A stretch of DNA of 64,000 bases. It comes from Branchiostoma floridae. Lineage: Eukaryota > Chordata > Leptocardii > Amphioxiformes > Branchiostomatidae. Under the pieces are notes generated by a model that searched no databases, was not told where the DNA came from, and saw only the letters and a list, made by a program, of their open reading frames with translations. This document shows positions 30,886-63,610 of this stretch, in pieces (position 1 is the stretch's first letter; every line of letters begins with the position of its first letter). The stretch spans positions 22,395,249 to 22,459,248 of the forward strand of contig NC_049980.1 of NCBI RefSeq assembly GCF_000003815.2, in the 5' to 3' direction. Position numbers and translations under genes: made by a program.

Positions 30886-32231
30886 ACCTATGTGCAGCCA
30901 GAACATTAATACGTACACCGGAAGCAATCTTCCACGTCTATCACCCCAGACCTCTGCCCAATTATTAAGTAGATGCTTATCTTAACACGATTACCCTGGT
31001 TCCCGGGTCACACCTTCAGAATGGCGGAGACTGTGCGCATTGTTTCGGTGAAAAGAACGAAATGGCGTAAATTCGCGGAAGTGTGAAATTGTGGAAAACT
31101 AATTCTGATTGACGCTACCTGTTAGCAGACAATGTGACAACAAATAGGAGCATAAAGAAGTACAGAACTGATGGACAGATAACATTTGATTATGAACATG
31201 CTATGTTGCTTACTTAGTGCTTAAGGTTTCAAACTATACACAAAACTTGTTTCCAGCCATACTGCTGTAGTGTGGTAGATATGTACTAAACCGCATTGCC
31301 AACAACCGAAGTTCGTACTTTTGAGAACAGTAGCGTTACAAGCTGAAAATCCCATCAATGCGCCTGTAGGCACAGGAAGACCTAAGGTCTAGGGTCTATG
31401 TACAAACGAATTTCGTTGACAGAAGCAGATTTTGCAGGCTGTGAGTGTTTTGTGTTTGACAGGAATGGTATCAAAACACTTGGGTACACACCATGGTCTA
31501 CAAAAGAATGCCCCTTTGACCTCGCTCTTTCCCCTGCCGTTCTCCATAAATGCACAGAATAGTAAAATCTCAACATACAGCACATTGTCTACGTCTCTTT
31601 CTTGATAAAAAATGTTATGTCCAAACAGTGTCGACTGTGTGGGATTGCATATGATGTACTATTTGTTTGGCTTGACAAGTTGATTTGATTCGGATCTTCA
31701 TTAGTGACTGATACAGGTTCCGGTTATTATGAATATGAGGATATCGATTATAAATCGTAAGTGACTTTTCTCAGATCTAGCCCAGCATGCCCGGCTGACC
31801 GTGTTGTCCCCCTGTTGTCCCCTCAGGTGTGGTTCCAGAACCGCCGTGCGAAGTGGCGCCGTCAGGAGAAGATAGAAGCCCAGACCATGAAGCTGCACGA
31901 CTACCCCATGGCGGCGCTGAACCACGTGCGGAACCCGGAGCGCGCCTCCCTGGCCGCCAACCTGCCCGTGGACCCTTGGATGACGGCTCCCATTGCCAGC
32001 GCCGCCGCCATCTCCGGCTTCCCGCTCTCCCCGACCACCTCCATAGCCTCCAACTCGGTCTTCGCGGCGTCGCTCCTGTCCTCCGCCACCCTGCCGGCTA
32101 TGTTCCCCATAGCCTCGCTCCCGGACCTCACCAAAGTGGCCCCGGACAGCAGGAGCGCCAGCGTGGCCGCCCTCAGGATGCGGGCTAGGGAGCACCTCGA
32201 GTCTATGGGGAAGATGTTTTCGTACTCATGA
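6673..32231 (+). CDS. Rx: Rx (retinal homeobox) transcription factor, three exons, 318 aa
   Basis: Joining 6673-6970, 17608-17861 and 31827-32231 keeps one frame through 319 codons. The protein has the Rx octapeptide HTIDAILGL at residues 30-38 and an acidic stretch at about 118-134. A paired-class Q50 homeodomain lies at 139-198 ([34 protein letters not shown]). An OAR motif lies near 293-307 ([16 protein letters not shown]), four residues short of a typical Rx C-terminus. This combination of octapeptide, homeodomain and OAR is diagnostic of Rx/RAX, a nuclear DNA-binding regulator of eye-field and anterior neural development in bilaterians. Introns are 10,637 bp (phase 1) and 13,965 bp (phase 0). 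The second falls between homeodomain residues 46 and 47, as in many paired-class genes. The Rx-specific Paired-tail spacing looks complete and no break is seen. The only uncertainty is possible extra non-coding 5' exons. Confidence 0.96.
11264..11512. repeat. Three-copy tandem repeat, 82-86-bp unit
   Basis: Units begin at about 11264, 11346 and 11432 with TGTGTC(T/A)TTA. They share TAGAAAAGCGC(T/A)GTAAAA, AAACA(C/G)AG and a CGTGTT(C/T)A ending. The copies differ by substitutions and small gaps, so the duplication is not recent. Confidence 0.85.
11640..11990 (-). mobile_element. Decayed non-LTR retrotransposon (LINE) reverse-transcriptase fragment
   Basis: The minus strand encodes [20 protein letters not shown], followed by [16 protein letters not shown] and SQHGFRK, typical of RT motifs in Jockey/CR1-type LINEs. 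Just upstream, in another frame (about 11985-11890), it reads [19 protein letters not shown]. That is the usual segment before the RT fingers, so at least one frameshift has occurred. No intact ORF, endonuclease or catalytic box is present. It is a dead fragment lying antisense within Rx intron 1. Confidence 0.8.
11992..12009. repeat. Poly-C run of 18
   Basis: A homopolymer of 18 C on the plus strand next to the LINE fragment. Its length is prone to sequencing and replication error. Confidence 0.9.
13080..13760. repeat. Degenerate block of a dispersed, tandem-like repeat
   Basis: Phrases such as CTACACACCTGCCAAATATC, CTACACACCTACAAAAAATC, TCGAGTTAT and CAAACAAGCTGCTAGGGGGC return at intervals of about 65-200 bp. 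Counterparts occur at about 3470-3790. The style matches the low-complexity dispersed repeats common in marine invertebrate genomes. The overlapping open frames are incidental. Confidence 0.45.
13896..14044. mobile_element. Small TIR element (MITE), about 150 bp
   Basis: The left end CAGTAGAAGCCAGCGTATTT and the inverted right end (CCAGTATAAGCCAGTTAATT) match imperfectly. Inside, GTGCAATTATCCGG and GGTTATCCGTCGTGCAATTA continue the symmetry. TA dinucleotides lie beside both ends, one base offset on the right. The CAGT-type ends and TA flanks suggest a Tc1/mariner-pogo-type non-autonomous element. It is too short for a transposase. Confidence 0.55.
14620..14732 (-). mobile_element. tRNA-derived SINE copy
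   Basis: Read on the minus strand it starts GTCCCTGTAGCCCAACTGGT, with an A-box-like TAGCCCAACTGG and a B-box-like GTTCAATGCTGGG about 60-70 bp on, then TATCTCGGTTG. The same head and tail occur at 22003-22125. The B box is degenerate, so this is a SINE and not a working tRNA gene. Confidence 0.65.
14830..15059. repeat. Perfect 2 x 115-bp tandem duplication
   Basis: Positions 14830-14944 and 14945-15059 are identical base for base, beginning ACTTGGCCCTATTTTGTTG. Such identity implies either a very recent duplication or an assembly artefact. No flanking partial copies are visible. Confidence 0.93.
15603..15858. repeat. Decayed tandem array of about four 62-65-bp units
   Basis: Units share ACCGT(A/T)(T/A)ACATG, then TGTTAT-TGATGCTCGTTCAAA-like and AACAAT(A/G)T(A/C)CG(A/G)AT segments. 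In minus-strand translation the period shows as a 21-residue pattern (VNGIR...[10 protein letters not shown]). The divergence indicates an old array. I do not treat the frames as coding. Confidence 0.6.
17608..17861 (+). CDS. Rx: Rx exon 2 (first three quarters of the homeodomain)
   Basis: The acceptor TTCTTCCCCAG ends at 17607 after a pyrimidine tract. The exon's first two bases complete codon 100 (Gly), matching the phase-1 donor of exon 1. It encodes an acidic linker and homeodomain residues 1-46 (HRRNRTTF to EVRVQ). It stops at CAG/GTGGGA at 17861/17862. A second AG at 17626-17627 would give the wrong phase and is rejected. Confidence 0.96.
18086..18606. repeat. Inverted repeat pair around a 390-bp spacer
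   Basis: The segment at 18086-18145, containing ATCGTGCATCATATTCCTAT, is mirrored as the reverse complement at about 18540-18606 (ATAGGAATATGATGCACGAT). A related word, GGAATA(T/C)(C/G)ATGCAAAAT, also occurs near 38512 and 55559. This is either one TIR element or two copies of one small repeat in opposite orientation. Confidence 0.7.
18677..19753. mobile_element. Non-autonomous DNA transposon, perfect 36-bp TIRs
   Basis: The first 36 bases (beginning GCTAAAGCCCCGGTCACAAA) are exactly repeated, inverted, at 19718-19753. Both ends are flanked by GGTC (18673-18676 and 19754-19757), a possible 4-bp target-site duplication. A third, imperfect copy of the terminal motif (GCGCTTTGTGACCACGGCTT) lies near 19619, and internal (C/T)CGTACGATG words repeat. 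No transposase frame is present, so it must be mobilised in trans. I cannot assign the superfamily with confidence. Confidence 0.85.
20070..20560. promoter_or_regulatory. GC-rich unique stretch, candidate Rx enhancer
   Basis: Unlike its AT-rich surroundings, this part of intron 2 is GC-rich and non-repetitive. It carries homeodomain/Otx-like words (GGTAATTATTAAAC, CTGATTAAGG, CCAATTAATAAAC, TCTGATTAAG). Open frames occur on both strands, none recognisable. The regulatory role is inference only. Confidence 0.25.
21190..21760. repeat. Degenerate internal repeats rich in GACAGGG and TGTCA words
   Basis: Three to four loosely related units recur. They contain TCTAATCA or TAATTAACCATCGG, GGACAGGG(A/T)(A/G)AC, CTGTCA, CACGACAGGGCTATG and CGTCGCTTTTA. 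The copies are too divergent for a recent duplication. It may be an old repeat or a control region with repeated sites. Confidence 0.4.
22003..22125 (+). mobile_element. tRNA-derived SINE copy
   Basis: It begins GTGTCCCTGTGGCTTAACTGG (A-box-like) and has GTTCAAATCCTGGGA (B-box-like) about 70 bases later. The 5' TCCC can pair with the 3' GGGA as in a tRNA acceptor stem. An interrupted middle part and a non-tRNA tail (CATCTCGGTTGGGACTGCAC) mark it as a SINE and not a tRNA gene. The same family lies at 14620-14732 and 22905-23080. Confidence 0.7.
22905..23080 (+). mobile_element. tRNA-derived SINE copy, diverged
   Basis: It opens with GATGTCCCTGTAGCTCAACT, GGTAGCAGCCTCGCGGTT and later GATGGTAACTGGAATACTCC, the same order as the other two SINE copies. 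The B-box area is replaced by GTCTCGTGTTCGGGAAGGTACC and ends at a G run near 23070-23081. It is an older or rearranged copy. Confidence 0.6.
23090..26780. other. Intronic sequence, no gene or clear repeat recognised
   Basis: Within Rx intron 2. AT-rich, without a coding region that I can support on either strand. A LINE-like tail is possible on the minus strand near 26343-26365 (AATAAAGATCATTGTCATTG when reversed). That is too little to call an element. Confidence 0.4.
26800..27070. promoter_or_regulatory. Candidate conserved non-coding element in Rx intron 2
   Basis: Non-repetitive and not coding. It is dense in AT-rich homeodomain-type words (TTTTTAATTCCC, CAATCAATTC, CTAATTTG, AATAATAATCC, GGCCATTATTAGG). 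The composition resembles vertebrate and amphioxus non-coding elements near developmental genes, but there is no alignment to prove it. Confidence 0.2.
29061..29250. mobile_element. MITE, 190 bp, imperfect long TIRs
   Basis: The left arm (CTTTCGCAGGCTTCCGAAGC, then GGTGGCGTTTATTTTT) pairs with the right arm (AAAAATAAACGCCACCGCTC, then TCGAAGTCTGCGAAGG). Arms are about 50 bp with a few mismatches and a 75-bp spacer. No coding capacity. Confidence 0.8.
29350..29552. mobile_element. MITE-like element, about 200 bp
   Basis: GAGCGACCGCACAGC near 29362 is answered by GGCGGTCGCAGCACCCAGTG near 29533. The core holds ACAACAAACCACACAAAACG and GAAACTCGTTGAGCAATTTG, the internal module shared with elements near 35550, 36050, 38525, 42225 and 42830. 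Confidence 0.5.
30690..30888. repeat. AC microsatellite, long pure core
   Basis: Imperfect ACAC/GCAC sequence from about 30690, becoming an essentially pure (CA)n tract from 30814 to about 30888. Apparent Cys-Val frames on the minus strand are produced by the repeat. Confidence 0.97.
31827..32231 (+). CDS. Rx: Rx exon 3 (homeodomain end, C-terminal domain, OAR)
   Basis: The acceptor CCCCTCAG ends at 31826 and the exon opens with GTG TGG TTC CAG (V47-W48-F49-Q50). It encodes [19 protein letters not shown], a Ser/Ala/Pro-rich middle ([19 protein letters not shown]) and the OAR, and ends at TGA 32229-32231. GC content is much higher than in the flanking intron, as expected for coding sequence here. 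Confidence 0.96.
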   Translation: MWFQNRRAKWRRQEKIEAQTMKLHDYPMAALNHVRNPERASLAANLPVDPWMTAPIASAAAISGFPLSPTTSIASNSVFAASLLSSATLPAMFPIASLPDLTKVAPDSRSASVAALRMRAREHLESMGKMFSYS

Positions 32232-44454: not shown

Positions 44455-46118
44455 CTACAGGACGAGCAAAAATTGTGGGTAAACGTTAGTTTTCAATATT
44501 CAGTTCAAATACAACACGATGTGGTGACACATTAGAGTACTTTTTTTGCAATGACACCACGACCATAAGAGAACAAGCGATAATCAAAGGTACAGACAGG
44601 TCTGATGTCGAGGACTAAATGCACATCGATTTAGATACGGTTTGTCAAACGCAACTTCTTGTGTTTCATTCGGAAAACCAATATGAAGTCTTCAGTTTCA
44701 AGGAAAGTTCCATACGCAAGATTTTTCACAAACAAACCTTAATACATCCTGTTTGTAATTTGAAGATAATTTTCCGCCTAACCATGAAATTACTATAGTT
44801 GGGTAAAAATATACCGGATGACTAATAATCATGCATCAAAAACGGCCACCCAAATGGACGGGAGGAAATTTGACCACTGCACAAATAACAAAGGTTGCTA
44901 TGTCTAATACACGGAGAAAATGTTACTTTCTTTGTTAGTCGACGTTTTAACTGGTGCAACCATTAAAACTGGCCGTATTTAATTATTCCACCATACAATT
45001 ACCAATTTCTGTTAAAAGCATTAGCCAAGCAATTTCATCGCACAACAGATCTAGAGGGGTACTAATGAGACAGAGTAGAATATGTACACTTGTTAAAGTC
45101 ATTCGAGCTTTCCTTACCTGAATTCTGGCCTCCGTCAGCTCCAGTTTGTTGGCGAGTTCCTCACGCATGCTGAGATCGGGGTATGGCGTCCTGTCGTAGG
45201 CCAGCTCCAGTTCGTGGATCTGGAACGTGGTGAAGGTGGTCCTGTTACGGCGGGGCCGGCACATCTTGCCCGACGACACCGCTGCCTCGGCCCGGTCCTC
45301 GGACGTCGGGCTCGACAGGTTCACTGGCGAGGGTGAGCGCGTGGTTTCCCGACGATCTTCCCTCCTCTGTCCTGCTGGTTTGACCGGATCGTCCTTGGGG
45401 ACGGGTCGGCGGGGGGACGAGCAGGTGGCTGTCGGCGGCGCCCTGCTGTTTCCCCCTGAGGAAGGGGCGAGAAGACCCCGCTCTCTCGGCCCTGGAGAAG
45501 CCCGGCCACTCGTGGACAAGCAAATAGGACTATCCGAAACTGCAAGTCAGAGGGAGAACAGCGGTTAAGATTGTTTCTCTAACTTAAATCAAACTCAGAG
45601 AGAAGACTGGTGCTGTTCAGTCTAAAACTTGGTTTCTCATTGTGTTGGAAATCGCAGTACAGCTTTGCTTCAGAATTAGTGATATGATCGCCGACTGCCT
45701 CAAATTTTCTACGTGGCGAAAATCTGTGCAGTTGTAAGGTGTTTTCACTGCCTAACCAGAACTTTGAGAATGATCACCACATTTTCTCCAGACGCAAAAA
45801 AAAGTAGAGAAACATATCAGTCTAACCAGTGGATCGAAACATAGAAAACCTGGCCCGATTTTCCTAATGAATAACCACCGGTCATCAAACCAGCGTAAAT
45901 TTGCTATCAAGGATTAGAAAAACATGAAAGGAAAGTCATTTGAGGTAGATGGAACCCGTCAGCTCACCTGTTTCTTGTGCGTCGGTGTGGGGAGTTTTCC
46001 CCTGGACGGAGTGTGCCAGGATCCAGTCTATGGTGAAGGTGTTGGGTCTCTGGGCGGTGACGTCCCGATCCAAGCGGGGGCTGGGCAGGTGGGTACTTCC
46101 CTCGGGCACGGTCTTCAT
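44065..46118 (-). CDS. Paired-class (Q50) homeobox protein, Rx/homeobrain-like, three exons, 320 aa
   Basis: Joining 46118-45968, 45539-45118 and 44454-44065 gives 321 codons in one frame with canonical GT/AG at each join. Residues 28-35 (FTIDWILA) form an eh1/octapeptide-like motif. A Ser/Pro/Arg-rich linker follows. The homeodomain at 146-205 begins [20 protein letters not shown] and ends [14 protein letters not shown]. The tail is Pro-rich and ends in an aromatic stretch ([20 protein letters not shown]). There is no [10 protein letters not shown]-x-HELE is shared with Rx and nearly with homeobrain, and the intron phases equal those of Rx. Oddities are Thr at position 56 where nearly all paired-class proteins have Trp, Tyr at core position 20, and Leu at 18. 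Family is uncertain: a divergent homeobrain-type or Rx-derived paralogue is favoured; Prop-like is possible (Prop also lacks W56). Presumed nuclear transcription factor. Confidence 0.9.
45118..45539 (-). CDS. Paired-class homeobox gene, exon 2
   Basis: The acceptor CTCTGACTTGCAG ends at 45540 after a pyrimidine tract. The first two bases of the exon complete the split Val codon 51. An in-frame stop lies just upstream (45549-45547), so the exon cannot start earlier. It ends at ATTCAG/GTAAGG (45118/45117), after homeodomain residue Q46. It encodes a low-complexity Ser/Pro/Arg linker and homeodomain residues 1-46. Confidence 0.93.
45968..46118 (-). CDS. Paired-class homeobox gene, exon 1 (eh1 motif)
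   Basis: The ATG at 46118-46116 has the context AAACCATGA. Fifty full codons are followed by one base, with donor ACAG/GTGAGC at 45968/45967 (phase 1). The exon carries [10 protein letters not shown], close in form to the Rx motif (HTIDAILGL) and to eh1 motifs that bind Groucho-type co-repressors. The phase matches exon 2 exactly, which supports this join. Confidence 0.85.
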
Positions 46119-53214: not shown

Positions 53215-53845
53215 GTGCTCGGGGACATCCGGGCAGTGAACACAACCTTACACTTGTCCCAGGACACCCGGGCGGTGAACACAACCTTACACTTGTCCCA
53301 GGACATCCGGGCCGTGAACACAACCTTACACTTGTCCCAGGACATCCGGGCCGTGAACACAACCTTACACTTGTCCCAGGACATCCGGGCCGTGAACACA
53401 ACCTTACACTTGTCCCAGGACATCCGGGCAGTGAACACAACCTTACACTTGTCCGAGGACATCCGGGCCGTGAACACAACCTTACACTTGTCCCAGGACA
53501 TCCGGGCCGTGAACACAACCTTACACTTGTCCCAGGACATCCGGGCCGTGAACACAACCTTACACTTGTCCCAGGACATCCGGGCCGTGAACACAACCTT
53601 ACACTTGTCCCGGGACATCCGGGCCGTGAAAACAACCTTACACTTGTCCCGGGACATCCGGGCCGTGAACACAACCTTACACTTGTCCCAGGACACCCGG
53701 GCCGTGAACACAACCTTACACTTGTCCCAGGACACCCGGGCCGTGAACACAACCTTACACTTGTCCCAGGACATCCGGGCGGTGAACACAACCTTACACT
53801 TGTCCCAGGACATCCGGGCGGTGAACACAAACTTACACTTGTCTA
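53215..53845. repeat. Minisatellite, 39-bp unit, about 16 copies
   Basis: The unit contains GTGAACACAACCTTACACTT and GTCCCAGGACATCCGGGCC. It repeats about 16 times with one to three changes per copy, mainly ATC/ACC and GCC/GCG/GCA. Because 39 is a multiple of 3, frames of about 240 codons stay open on both strands. I regard these as by-products: no start context, splice site or flanking homology supports a gene. Confidence 0.97.
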
Positions 53846-56065: not shown

Positions 56066-56560
56066 ATGAACGGTACCACCGCGAGCCTGACCGGAGGAAA
56101 CTCCACGGTGTACGAGACTTTGTGGCCGTGTTTGCGCTGGTATCTGAATAACAAGGTGGACTACGACCTGGCAGTAGCTGCGTGCTCTCATCTCCCAGCT
56201 CCTATCCTGGAGGAGAACAGGAAAGTCGGGATCGCCTCCGCCGTGGTCGGGACTGTCGCCCTCCTCATGAACGGCGCGGTTCTGTCCGGGGTGCTGATAA
56301 ACCGTCACCTGTCCAAACCCATGTATCTGCTCGTGGCAAACCTGGCCACGGCGGACTGTCTGGCAGGTTTCTTCTCGTTCTTCTTCTGCGCGAGTTTGCA
56401 GTCGGGACTGTCGCGACCATTCACAATGTTGGGCTTATTCTGTATCTTCTTCTTAGCGTTGGTCTTATCAGCAGTTGGCGTGGTTTTCCTGTCCGTGGAC
56501 CGTTATCTGGCCATCCTCCACCCGATATTCTATCAGGCCCGCATGTCTGGGTGGCACTAG
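56066..56560 (+). pseudogene. Rhodopsin-class GPCR, 5' half (TM1 to intracellular loop 2), interrupted
   Basis: The ATG at 56066 (context CAAGATGAAC) opens 164 codons. N-glycosylation sequons lie at residues 2 (NGT) and 12 (NST). TM1 is at about 56-77 (VGIASAVVGTVALLMNGAVL), TM2 at about 88-112 with NLATADCLAGF, TM3 at about 123-146, and SVDRYLAILHP contains the DRY motif. The frame then runs into an inserted element and stops at once (TAG 56558-56560). TM1/TM2 and the second half resemble MECA/lysophospholipid-type receptors (LPA, S1P and cannabinoid relatives); the ligand is unknown. It is likely non-functional on this allele unless the element is removed from the transcript. Confidence 0.85.
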
Positions 56561-56891
56561 AGGAGGGTTCCGGCCTATCCCACAATACATTGCGGTTTCC
56601 GGTCTACGCCAGATATATACGTTGGACCGGAAGTTCTAGTTCATTCGAAACTATGTCGGCGCCTCAGACGGATGGGAAAGCGGTGTCTCCCGGCTTTTCG
56701 TCCTGTAAGCATAATAATATAAATAATAAAGACAGCTAATGTTCTATGAGGCACATAATGTGTATGAAACATATGGAATTCCAGATAAGGATAGAGACAT
56801 AGTAACCTTAGCGGGAATGAGGGAAAATCATAAAGAGCGGATTAACTCAGCATTGTACCAGACAATTTCTAGGTACATCGAGCGGACAAAC

Positions 56892-56994
56892 TAGCCTGAG
56901 TATCATCCTCCGTAGTAACCGCTGGCTCACGACTTTCGCTTGCTAACCACGGACTTCCAGCCAGCGGTTACTACGGAGGATGATACTCAGGCTA
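56892..56994. repeat. Perfect hairpin, 34-bp arms, 35-bp loop
   Basis: TAGCCTGAGTATCATCCTCC... at 56892-56925 is exactly mirrored at 56961-56994. It lies 334 bp inside the transposon. It may be a transposase-binding subterminal structure or a smaller foldback element nested within the larger one. Confidence 0.95.
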
Positions 56995-57942
56995 CGGACA
57001 AACAGGTTCAGTCAATCATTCTCTTGCTGATATCATGCACGAGTAAGCACCCTGGGAATAAAACCACGTGAAACCAGATCACAAGCACCTTGAACCGGAA
57101 GCAGAATGAACCGGAAGTATACAGCACCTTGAGTCTACGTCTAGCGCAACACAGTAGACGGAACCAGCCTCACGGAAAACAGGGATATCAAATAATTTGT
57201 CAGTTTGTACCGTATCGATAAGTCGCTATTCCTGACAAGGGAATGCTTACAAGCTGATATTGTGTCTGCCAACCTGCGGTGCAGCCGATTTTCTCTGGTA
57301 GCTTCAAATTGACAGCGATAATCCCGGGGCTGCCGACAAACAACAGAAGTGCCAGCGCAAGGTCACCAAAAATTCCCCGCACCAAAGCTGCTTGGAGTGG
57401 CCAGACGTTGTGTGGCAAAGGTGAGTCTCTACCATCTATCCTTGCACAATTTTGTGTCTCTGGCATCCTTTGTAAACTCAACCTCCTTGGTAAACTATTT
57501 TCTCCGTATTTTCTTACAAACAGTTGCCGTATCGGGCGAATGTAAGTTGTTGGGGGGAGGGGGGCAAAGCTTATTTTGTGCGGAGGAGACATGAACCGCA
57601 AATACCATGACGTTTTTAACAAAACCAACGTAGAATTTCAATATTAAAAGATATGTTTCAATTTTGATTGGATTAAAAATCTGGGAGGGGCGACAAAATT
57701 GTGCTACAAATCTGTTTCAGGGCTCAAAATACCACCTACATATGCATGTTAGTGCAGGTAAAATTGGAGTTTTTTCAGGTATTTCTGGTGTCTACCTGCA
57801 CCTATATTAAAATTGCACTGGTCCATAAACTAGGTTTTATACATAAATGTCCTGGAGATGTAGGTGGATTTGATTGTTATTAGCTCAGCATTGACTGTGA
57901 TATAGTAGTAATTGTGGTACAACATGTTGTATCTGTCATAAT

Positions 57943-58605
57943 TTACAGAGAAGACAAATCACTATTATACACATCGTTTTTGTCATCTGCTCCCCACTTG
58001 CCTTTCTTCACAACTGCTATTGAAGCTCCAAACCCATTCTGTACAGGGTGTAGTTCAAACTTGGGTGTAGATGGTAATGTAACAGATCCAATTTCTTCTC
58101 TCTTCATTGCTTTTGTAACTTTCAGAATCATCTCAACAGGCATGTAACCAATAACTTTCCAGTGGTTTACCAAGGCATCGATTTTAATAGCATTTCTGTC
58201 CTAATGGTTGTCCGGTTCAAAGTCCAATCTAACTGGAACAGGCCTCATGTTGACTAACATTTTGTCTTTTACAGCTGCAAGAGTGTCTTGGTATTTCCTT
58301 TCTCGTGTCAAGCCGCGCTGTTCAATGGTGGCTGCCTCCAATTCTTCATCATCATCACTGTCTTCACTCTCTACTGGAGATGGATGGGAAGTGGCTGATG
58401 CAGGAGTGAGGGAGCCACTAGCTGGGCAGCAATATGGACAGTCTCCATAATCCAGCACCGGCATGTTCTCAGGGGTATGGATGCCAGACTCACTAAGAGT
58501 TGGCACAGTCAGTGGGACTTTTGTGATGTGCTCCCATTCCCATATGCATATTGCAGTTGTTACGGCACTGCAGGAGAACTTCCGTGTTTGATATCTTAAC
58601 TTCTG
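57943..58605 (-). pseudogene. HIRAN-like domain open region with one in-frame stop, inside the transposon
   Basis: The minus strand is open for about 221 codons except for one TAG (58203-58201). Before the stop come an acidic Ser/Asp/Glu stretch (SEDSDDDEELEAATIEQRG) and RPVPVRLDFEPDNH. After it come DRNAIKIDALVNHWKVIGYM and VAVVKKGKW-like residues. The pattern EP-x-N/H...D-x-NAI-x-(I/V)...VIGY-(M/L)P is the signature of HIRAN domains, which bind DNA ends in SWI/SNF-type helicases and also occur in stand-alone transposon-linked proteins. No ATG start is found, so it may be a last exon. HIRAN is my best guess from motif alone. Confidence 0.45.
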
Positions 58606-60114
58606 GACATGCTATATGGCTATCCTTTTCAAATAGTGTATTTGGTATATCTTATAAGTAATTGGTGAAGTGTTGATCCCCTAGTGGCTTCTTTTGGAAC
58701 TACAGGGGCCAATTTAGTGTTGATAGCTTACATTATATATGTTATATCAGGAAAATGTGACTTGCTCAATATTACTGTCCCATTGAGGTAGCCAGAGAAA
58801 TATGGATTTCTTTTGTCAGGAATAGCCTTCTTGACACAGTACAAACTGACAATGTTGCAGCACAAAAATTAACATTCCTGTGCAAGTGGGTCAAGTCTGT
58901 ATGTATATTTTGCATACTGAAACATAGAGGGTTTGTCTTGTAAATATGTTTCTTGTACATTGCAACATACAGTATTACAGGTGTAACATCTTACTTGAGC
59001 TTTCCGTACAGTATATAGATTTTGATACAAGTTGAAAGCAACCAATTCATATTGTACTGTTGAACAACCGTTAAACATATACTGTGTTACCGTCAATCAC
59101 AATATTTACATAAAATCTCAAGAATATCAAGCAACAGAGAAAACTGTACTGAATGATTGCAACCCCTACATAGCATAGTGTGGCATAGCTTTAAATATAC
59201 TACTGTGTTGTACCAATAAACGAAGAACATGAGATGTAAAAGCCTCTGTAAATACAACATGTCTATCTTAACTAGAACCACTGATACACATACACTTGTC
59301 AGTCTCCAACTGTTGTTGGGTATAAGTGTATGGAAACAACCTACATTGAAAAAGTGCACTTGATTGTATTACGGCAATGAATAATTGAAGTCATTCTGTG
59401 AAATTGTCTTCATTTTATTATTTATTTGTCAAAAAACAGAACTTGTTACACAACACTGCTTAAAGTCTTCACACCACCCAATGTAGAAAGAAGGTTGAAA
59501 ACAATGTGCATAGTTTTGCGTATATTATTCAAGAAAACAAGGGGTACTTGTATGTTTGTGTATATATCAAAATATGTACACACGTGTCGAGTTCAAAATA
59601 TAAGAATTGTTCAGTAGACGTGAATGTGCGCCTGTATCTTCATTCACTGGTGGCACACCCACTGCAAATTTGTGGAATCTCTGCTCTATCCATATATTCC
59701 ATAATTAAAATCTGCATACATAAACATTGGTATATCCATACATTAGTCACTATATAGATACTATGGGATCTCTGAGTTAGAACTAGTGGCATCTGTACAG
59801 CTGTCTTCTGGCTGTGTGGACGTGGACATCTCAACAAGGGGATATCATTTACGTGTTGTTCTCCTATATGGGCCCGGGTTGAAAAGAGCACAAAAATACG
59901 GAAGACCGTGTTGTCTATGGCTAAGCTGTCACAAAACCGGCCAGACATAACCTAAAATGTGCAACATGTAACTGAAAATCACAAAAAAAATAGTAATCTA
60001 TTAAAGCTACGTGCCAGGGAGACATCAACGCCGACAGTGAACAACCGTGTAGATATCGTTTACACAACGCAGCCATAGCCCCCCTCCCCCAAATCTCAAA
60101 TTTCTCAGCAAAAT

Positions 60115-60201
60115 GTGGGGACCTTAGATTATCACGGCACCCAACGCAAGCTAAGACATCATATTACATGTTGAACATACTGAAAACCTAAGGTCCCCAC
60201 G
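60115..60201. repeat. Subterminal inverted repeat in the transposon
   Basis: GTGGGGACCTTAG near 60115 is mirrored by CTAAGGTCCCCAC ending near 60201, with about 58 bp between. Located about 330 bp from the right end, roughly the same distance as the left hairpin from the left end. Confidence 0.8.
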
Positions 60202-60538
60202 ATTTTTAGTAACCGAGGCGAAGATTCCGTCCGGGAGCGTCATGAAATGAGCAAATATCTTGATGTTTAAGTAACGCTGTTCGAAGATAAAATGCCCAAT
60301 TCTAACGTATAAAATACATGTTGCCTCCAAAGGAATACATAAATAGAATATGTATTGCCTCTACGAAGACACTAAAAAACAATAGGTCCCTAAAACTGCA
60401 CAGCCACGGAGCAGAAAGCCCTAAAAGTGGGCAAGACTGGAAATCACCTTCAGCCACACATGACACACAACCGGAAGTCAGGGGTCAAAGGTTAAATTGC
60501 ATTCTGGGTAACCCCGGATGCCTCCTCTGGGGTGGCAC

Positions 60539-61282
60539 GTTGCTGTGAGCTTGGCGATCGCGTGGCCGGCCTGTGTGACTGTGTGCTTGTCTCCTGTCAT
60601 GGGCTGGAACTGCATCGATTCGGGCACAGAGTCCTGCATTGCGTACTTGCCCGTAAGTTACGTCATCTTGATCGCCATTATCTTCGCCATGGCCGTGGTG
60701 ATAGTGATCTTCGCCAATGTCAGAATCTTCATAGTACTAAAGCGACTTTTCTCCAATGCCAAAACCCCCGAGAACCCCGAAGAAAACCTGCCCATGGCAA
60801 GGCGCAGAGAACTGGAAGAACAATACAGGCAACTCCAAAAGAGTTTGAAGATGCAGGTGACAGTCGCCATCGTTGCAGCAATGTTCGTCATCGTCTGGCT
60901 ACCGATCTGTATCGGGAGTGTGCAACAAGTTTTGTGCATTGCTAGAGAAGACTGTGAGATAGAGGCGAGGCCATACTGGGGGATGTTCATCGCACTCTGC
61001 AGTTCGGTGATAAACCCAGTGATCTACGCATTCAGGATCAAGAAGATTCGGGAGGCCGTGCATCACAGGGCGCGACGACTTGCCAGCGCGGTTCGTGAAA
61101 AGTTGGGATGGTCATCGAATCAAATGGTTATCATTCAGGTCGTTGGAGATTCGCGGACAATGGAACCGAGTTCAAATTCGGACAATCCGACTGACCAGCC
61201 GACTAAATGGGCAGTCAGTCGAAGAGCGGCAGAGAATCCCACAAACGCACAGAGCTCGCGTCGTCTAGATGACTCTACGTAG
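60539..61282 (+). pseudogene. Rhodopsin-class GPCR, 3' half (TM4 to C-terminus)
   Basis: In frame with the 5' half once the insertion and one duplicate are discounted; together they total 411 residues, a normal class A length. TM4 (VAVSLAIAWPACVTVCLSPV) is followed by MGWNCI and a Cys-containing loop 2, as in lysophospholipid receptors. TM5 runs through ILIAIIFAMAVVIVIFANVR, and loop 3 is charged (ARRRELEEQYRQLQKSLKMQ). TM6 has VWLP where CWxP is usual, and TM7 has NPVIYAFR. The tail is rich in Ser, Asn and Arg and ends at TAG 61280-61282. No frameshift or stop lies inside. An ATG at 60518 within the element end could start a truncated product, but one without TM1-3. Confidence 0.85.
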
Positions 61283-63610
61283 CTTCTCAGTGTCAGTAAA
61301 GATGCCCTGTGCTCTTGGGTCCTTCTGCAGTGGAAATGAGTGAGTGAGGAAGGTAAAGTGATCTTTAAGAAGTATTTTTGTGTGCAAAGACTGCTGTGAA
61401 ACTAACGTATGTGTACATGTGGGGCCATTGTGTTGACTTCTTTGTTGATCAAAATATTGTTTATACAAAATGTAAAAATGAAGTTTTATTAATTCCTGTA
61501 GGAGAGATGTAGTCATTGACGGCTATGCAGTTTTGTTGTGCTGCATTGTTACAAATTTGATGAGTGAAAAATGTAGTTTGAGGTTTTCTTCATTGTAGTT
61601 ATGCAGTTTTGTTTTGTTATTATAACTTCGAACGTAGATTGCATGGAGTTATATGTATAAACTTTAAGTAATTCTCATTGTCATGTATATATGTAATTTG
61701 ATATAAAAGTACAGTAACTATGTACCCAGTGTGAATTGGAAAAATAAGTGGCACATAGCTCTGTGATGTTTGAATAGCTGTGGTCAGGTCTTTTTATTGT
61801 AGATACTTGAATACTGTGTTGAAATTGAATAAAAAGTTTGCTTGTAGCCCCTGAGACTTCGTGCACCTGAGGTATGATTCACAAAGACAAAGTAATTAGT
61901 TACATGACATGCTACTTGCAGAAAACGGTCACAAATATACATGGGGTTACATTTACCATAGTGGACTATGATGTGGTTTGAGGGATGTGTTGGGTTGGGT
62001 TTGACGATGGGAGAGTTGGGGTTGTCTCAGCAATGGGGCAACTTAGTAACTAAAAAAGTGGCCTTGTTTTGATGTTGATATATTTTATTGAGATGGCAAA
62101 TACCATAAATCAGTATTGACTTGGGAGTGTAAAAATGGCTCATCTTAGCATATACTGTCTCCATTTCCTTATACATATATAGTCTTTTATCCTATAATTC
62201 TTGTGAGCATTTTATAGGCAACTTTCCAGAGTCATGCCTTACTTCTTAAACTGAGCCAGAATATCTCATATAATATTCCAAGCATAGTGGCAATAGCAGC
62301 AAACTGCTTCACACTGCATAGGTTTCAAAAGGTACAGATCAACTGATTCTTAGCAAGGCCACACAGTCTGGATTTTATGGATGACACACTGTGTCTCTAA
62401 ATCTGGTGGGGAATCCCACCGTTTGATTTACACAATGCATGGTTTGCAAATGAACTATGTATAAAAGTATTTTGCTTTGAAATAAACATGTAACTGTTTT
62501 ATGACAGTTCTTATAAATTGCTTCCTAACAATTATGTCTTAAAGCTTTTAGAAATCACCTATGATAGATAATGATTCAATTAACACTCCTTGCAAAAGAA
62601 GCTTTTCAATTGTGCAGCTAGTCTACTAAAACCTTTTCAATTGTGCAGCTAGTCTACTCCAACCTGAATTCTACAACACTTGAGGACTGCCTTTGTCTAT
62701 GAGTAGTGGCTATTTTCAAATCTTGACTTCTAACATTGACCTCATTCTGGTTTGTGACACTTTCTAAGTCTGAGACCTGGTGAGGAGTAAAGACATGGCC
62801 TACATTTCTCTACAAAGGTGCTGAGCATCAAAACTATACTGTCAATCTTGAAAACCTGACACACATAACAAGTCCCGTGCATGTCAACTGAGGGACTAGC
62901 TGACGTTACAAACCAGGACAATGTCAACTTCCTTTGATGTTTCATTGTTTGAGTTAAACAGTGACTTAACTTGCAACTTCTAGACACAACTTTACTCGCT
63001 CTTTTAACAGGCACTTTGTCAAAGGCAATTGCTGCTTATGCTGTTGCTCATTAGGTTGTTTGGAGTTCAAGTATTTGGAGCCAGAGTTCATTGTAATACA
63101 TACAACTTGAAATATATCAGTACAAAAATTATCCATCTTCTGCCCGTCCGGCCGTCACTATTCTTAATCAATGTCATTGTGATTGCCAGTTCTTCAAAAC
63201 ACGTCCGTCCATTTCCGGTATCTTGTTTGTCTTCTAATTACTTGCCTTGTCCTGGGTCAACGTGTCGCTGGTGTTCTTCCAGACTTCTGTTTGTCAGTTT
63301 CATCAATCCACACAGTTCAGACTTCAAAATCCTTCCCAAGGTTCAAACAAACAAGTCCTTGCAAGGAGCTCCCTTAGTGCATAGTGAGGCAGGGTCAGGA
63401 GCACAGCAGTCAAACAACACATCAAAATTAAACTCTTACACCGTACCAAAAGGGCACATAGGGTGTTTTATCTTGCTAGCAGAAAAATAGCACAACCTTA
63501 CATACTGTTTGCAGTCCTACAACACATTTAAATATAAAACACAGTTACAGTATGTGCTATTTGTGTGCTATCTTCAATATAGTTACTTTGGACATTTTCA
63601 TGTTTTAGTG
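61283..63610. other. GPCR 3' UTR and intergenic DNA
   Basis: AATAAA at 61828-61833 is a plausible receptor poly(A) signal, giving a 3' UTR of about 550 bases. The rest has no recognisable gene. A short direct duplication, TTTTCAATTGTGCAGCTAGT, lies at about 62604 and 62634. A 153-codon frame at 63029-63490 (+) lacks any feature I recognise. Confidence 0.45.
61828..61833 (+). terminator. Candidate poly(A) signal of the GPCR
   Basis: AATAAA followed by a T/G-rich stretch (AAGTTTGCTTG), 546 bp past the receptor stop. The sequence between is AT-rich with no other canonical hexamer closer. Confidence 0.45.

Follow-up and report, generated by a model that had tools for sequence, protein, structure and literature searches.

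An open reading frame (ORF) for a rhodopsin-family receptor of Branchiostoma floridae breaks off after 164 residues and resumes about 4 kb downstream, raising the question of what separates the two halves and whether this allele could still give a receptor. The locus lies in a stretch of 64,000 nucleotides (the window, C2:22395249-22459248), and relatives of its parts were sought in the 513.4-Mb assembly of 431 contigs. We are confident that a non-autonomous DNA transposon bounded by terminal inverted repeats (TIRs), presumably moved by a transposase from elsewhere, inserted by a 9-bp staggered cut into the receptor gene and left an allele that would lack the receptor. The features on which the argument draws are as follows.

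56066 to 56557, plus strand: receptor gene 5' part, 164 codons running from the ATG at 56066 through the first duplication copy (7tm_1, E 6.3e-14)
56549 to 56557, plus strand: first target duplication copy, GGGTGGCAC
56558 to 60529, no strand assigned: non-autonomous DNA transposon, 3972 bp, identified by inverted ends and related copies
56558 to 56573, plus strand: 5' TIR, TAGAGGAGGGTTCCGG, its first three bases being the in-frame stop TAG
56883 to 57003, no strand assigned: nested palindromic MITE of 103 bp (56892-56994) flanked by a separate 9-bp duplication, CGGACAAAC, at 56883-56891 and 56995-57003
57896 to 57897, no strand assigned: junction of an internal deletion of ~1.06 kb, in the window copy only among the long copies aligned
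57946 to 58611, minus strand: remnant of an ORF with a weak likeness to HIRAN, holding a single in-frame TAG at 58201-58203 (HIRAN, E 0.0016, 18.7 bits, under the curated 24.7)
60514 to 60529, minus strand: 3' TIR, read on the minus strand as CAGAGGAGGCATCCGG
60530 to 60538, plus strand: second target duplication copy, GGGTGGCAC
60539 to 61282, plus strand: receptor gene 3' part (7tm_1, E 1.9e-12)
61271 to 61287, plus strand: one base missing at each of two places in comparison with five paralogs (after 61271 and after 61286); the first loss shifts the frame

Elsewhere in the window there are pieces of two homeobox genes, one at 31761-32228 (plus strand) containing an OAR motif plus a homeodomain end that scores below the cut-off, and one at 44986-45546 (minus strand) in which the homeodomain is mostly present (E 1.3e-13). 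A tandem array at 53223-53843 consists of 15.9 copies of a 39-bp unit (97%); the unit length is divisible by 3, and long open frames run through the array on both strands.

The receptor gene and its insertion site

The Pfam 7tm_1 profile (length 260) is covered throughout, as expected of a rhodopsin-family receptor: the 5' half matches positions 2-99 and the 3' half matches positions 101-260. The host appears to be an intronless, S1P/MECA-like gene of this family: its 3' half resembles receptors of the S1P/MECA group, the best solved-structure match being S1P receptor 1 (E 4.7e-14), whereas its 5' half is closest to GPR12 and GPR6, the top solved-structure matches there. Two large amphioxus expansions, of 21 and 24, in the S1P/MECA cluster are described in a passage of PMC2246102.

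The initial annotation had read the same nine bases at the end of the 5' half and the start of the 3' half, and GGGTGGCAC is indeed found at both places, with exact identity over 9 bp and not beyond; at equal base frequencies, a particular 9-mer would occur at a specified position with a probability of ~4e-6. The insertion point corresponds to receptor codons 162-164. When the element and one 9-base copy are taken out, a single ORF of 411 residues results, with the 7tm_1 profile complete across the join, which agrees with the continuous receptor proposed in that annotation. In the allele as it stands, in-frame codon 1 of the element is the TAG at 56558, and the 5' ORF stops after 164 residues.

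A genome search with each half returned seven paralogous receptor loci. The halves abut with 0 bases between them at four of these (C5:20180874|20180875, C6:10395653|10395654, C4:26320824|26320825, and C2:32466322|32466323). For the remaining three (C16, C6:21.4 Mb, and C6:18.39 Mb), the first match ends 7-13 bases early and the spacing leaves no room for extra bases. Five paralogs (L025, L026, L027, L028, and L031) have their full length, contain no intron, and run unbroken through the insertion site, L030 is interrupted farther along, and L029 is partial. No second copy of the locus at allelic identity was found in the assembly, the next best match having 85% identity in the 5' part and 77% in the 3' half. 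At C9:22934510-22935791, a receptor paralog has its 3' segment apparently repeated as four short adjacent pieces.

The element and its family in the genome

That a transposon of ~4 kb cuts the gene, as had been claimed, is upheld by its inverted ends, the 9-bp target duplication, and related copies with the same ends elsewhere. The element runs from TAGAGGAGG to CCTCCTCTG (TAGAGGAGG...CCTCCTCTG), and its inverted terminal repeats are TAGAGGAGG at the 5' end and CAGAGGAGG at the 3' end on the opposite strand. Close to the ends (60480-60529 and 56600-56640), CCCAGAATGCA, CCGGAAGT, and GGGGTCAAAGG are putative likenesses of the binding motifs for ZNF143, ETS, and HNF4.

A search with the 5' end yielded 25 matches: seven to the receptor paralogs, one to the window, three short end matches, and 14 to relatives matched over at least 155 bp. 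At least 14 relatives of the element therefore lie at other sites in the same genome. The 3'-end search gave 15 matches, two of them new (C12:16880824 and C334:6582), and the match at C334:6582 may supply what is missing from the C17:4723449 copy. L016 (C17:4716000-4725000, beside an assembly gap) and L048 (C334:1-8000, on a small contig) have 8 of 9 flanking bases in common; the small contig may therefore hold the missing part of L016 or another haplotype. The end pattern of the element occurs at 51 sites in the genome, versus 17 for a reversed control.

Among 13 copies with both ends read, eight have an exact 9-bp duplication (the window copy, L009, L012, L013, L015, L017, L018, and L019); of the remaining five, L022 agrees at 8 of 9 bases and L020 at 7 of 9, L011 has 8 bp, and L014 and L021 have no duplication. 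A target duplication of constant length, exact at 9 bp in these eight copies, and the presence of several copies at unrelated sites are both as expected of a TIR DNA transposon.

The other copies measure 4.5-5.4 kb or ~1.2 kb, compared with 3972 bp in the window, and the ~1.06 kb missing at 57896/57897 is retained by eight other long copies aligned. The nested MITE is in the window copy alone among eight young copies, the other seven having a single, unfilled CGGACAAAC site. This 103-bp MITE is abundant, with 624 first-look candidates in the genome, 40 of which were scored.

Age and segregation of the insertion

Compared with seven young relatives, the window copy differs by private substitutions at 23 of 3859 positions (0.60%), the others having 0.43-0.86%, and the tree of copies is star-like, with an end branch of 0.0066 for the window copy; the suggestion that the insertion is young thus holds. 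With the B. floridae mutation rate (5.89e-9 per base per generation) and effective population size (Ne ~1.7 million) given in PMC12862219, the age of the insertion comes to 1.0 million generations (0.64-1.5). The end branch includes time before the jump into the receptor, which makes this figure an upper bound. This age is far below 4Ne, and the insertion is therefore probably polymorphic among individuals. The abstract of the same paper gives an amphioxus heterozygosity of 3.2-4.2%, in line with the estimates of age and fixation (PMC12862219).

Alternative explanations

The evidence is assembly sequence, and an artefactual join has to be considered; it is scarcely credible for a window without N in which exact element ends and an exact duplication fit transposition and the inserted copy carries private substitutions and a private nested MITE. 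The segment could also be an ordinary intron, or be removed like one, with the receptor still made, and a passage of PMC5802833 mentions a gained intron bearing a MITE in amphioxus PRHOXNB. Against this stand five receptor paralogs that are intronless at the insertion site and the splice sites themselves: among the pairings of 24 GT (56400-56700) with 24 AG (60200-60640), 13 are in frame and free of stops and none restores the 411 residues. The best pair scores -2.9 at the donor (window mean, -5.0) and -7.0 at the acceptor (window mean, -5.3), using splice-site frequencies, and splicing of this kind appears very improbable. Fixation of the insertion in the species, rather than segregation, would account for the single assembly examined having only the filled site, but the age bound of 0.64-1.5 million generations is to be set against an Ne of ~1.7 million, and the chance that an insertion this young is fixed is <0.1% under a neutral, panmictic model with the rate and Ne from a passage of PMC12862219. 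Although somewhat less remote than splicing, fixation is improbable.

More weight attaches to the possibility that the receptor gene had lost its function before the insertion, which would then have made no difference. In an alignment of the 3' half with five paralogs (L030 was left out), two single-base gaps lie near the 3' end; the last receptor residues are shifted and the frame ends early, at the TAG at 61280-61282. Consequently, the statement in the initial annotation that neither half has another stop or frameshift stands for the interior of the 3' half, which has no internal stop, but not for its extreme 3' end. The duplication contains the codon TGG in both copies, where six of six paralogs have CGN, suggesting that this Arg-to-Trp change probably predates the insertion. 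Furthermore, where the other six rows of the alignment all agree, the window gene has an excess of unique departures (23/161, versus 4/142 in L025; P = 0.0004), with corresponding counts of 5/143 in L026, 12/150 in L027, 8/146 in L028, 17/155 in L030, and 35/173 in L031; measured against five others with gaps counted, departures are 36/191 in the window gene and 7/162 in L025. The gene may thus have been drifting or decaying already when it was hit. On the other side, pairwise dN/dS between the window gene and its paralogs (0.375-0.498) is near that among the other paralogs (0.332-0.485), the gene is free of other stops, the gaps affect only its last residues, and L031 departs more often still. 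Prior loss of function is accordingly judged unlikely, although it is the most serious of these alternatives.

The preferred reading remains insertion of a TIR transposon into the receptor gene. Cut-and-paste steps of the following kind are established behavior of DNA transposons. A transposase acting in trans would have moved the element, integration would have proceeded through a 9-bp staggered cut at receptor codons 162-164, and repair of the stagger would have produced the 9-bp duplication. Because the first in-frame codon of the element is a stop, the allele should yield a fragment of at most 164 residues and no receptor, and, judged from sequence, the insertion is likely a knockout allele.

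Source of the transposase and affinities of the element

No transposase domain was found in the ORFs of ≥100 amino acids scanned in the window and its copies, as expected of an element without a transposase of its own. Ten ORFs of the copies had Pfam matches only under the curated scores, and inspection by eye of the ORFs listed for L023, L024, and L010, which have only the 5' end in common with the element, gave no recognizable transposase. The in-frame TAG of the HIRAN-like ORF is in most young copies that cover the position (L018 has Lys there), which suggests that the family spread without an intact ORF.

The HIRAN-like ORF has 33 matches in the genome, and 14 matching loci lie outside the element family. 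A relative of a 261-amino-acid partner ORF lies ≤5 kb away at 10 of these 14, the exceptions being C6:27791479, C6:21952812, C6:21433098, and C12:14117576; capture of a HIRAN fragment from a host gene was set aside because of this association. Six of the 10 partnered loci are flanked by complementary ends 11.9-12.5 kb apart. The end pattern of these ~12-kb elements occurs at 23 sites (reversed control, 0), and such elements, with the HIRAN-like ORF and the partner gene, are seen in L051, L052, and L053 and at C7:12790701-12803153 and five similar places. Two ~12-kb copies are 99% identical across 7.1 kb, indicating recent activity. Seven ORFs of one ~12-kb element, among them the 261-amino-acid ORF, had no Pfam match better than E 0.1, its HIRAN-like ORF scoring just 13.3 bits to HIRAN, and two ORFs of the ~12-kb elements had no solved-structure match up to E 1. 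At C1:31739017, where the closest relative of substantial length to the HIRAN-like ORF lies (47%), no convincing element end was found within the 4 kb examined.

Target duplications of 9 bp are typical of MuDR/Mutator-like transposons, which the element also resembles in having non-autonomous copies with inverted ends, and MULE transposases are present in this genome (27 matches). However, a MULE transposase was found in none of the family copies read, and, compared by eye, all 27 matches are more than 10 kb away from the 51 end-pattern sites. The ends of hAT elements begin YAG.G, as do those of this element, but its duplications differ from those of hAT in being exactly 9 bp in eight of 13 copies and 8 bp in one. 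In a passage of PMC3706591, hAT duplications are given as ~8 bp and MuDR is placed with groups that make duplications of 4-10 bp.

The ~12-kb elements (L051/L052) carry a relative of the HIRAN-like ORF, on the strand that corresponds with respect to the right end (32.6% over 95 amino acids), and an end that begins CAG.GG and contains CCCA..ATGCA, but 6 of their first 11 bases, counted by eye, are unlike those of the element. The Repbase rule for a family, as worded in a passage of PMC4455052, allows one mismatch in the ends, and over these 11 bases the two would not be placed in the same family, for which an equal duplication length would also be expected. It is conceivable, though on balance doubtful, that the element represents the short version of a DNA transposon group so far undescribed, with ~12-kb autonomous members that encode the HIRAN-like ORF and a multiexon partner gene without a Pfam or solved-structure match, 9-bp duplications, and recent activity in the species. 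A literature search (listings and passages of a few papers) returned no published description of the element.

The insertion is clear and young, and the event is of an ordinary kind; most unusual about it is that it stems from a little-known transposon family, a group worth following. The locus provides a dated transposon disruption of a gene for which paralogs supply the ancestral sequence. It points to a recently amplified transposon group unnamed in the libraries searched and predicts that the presence of this receptor would vary between individuals of a very diverse species.
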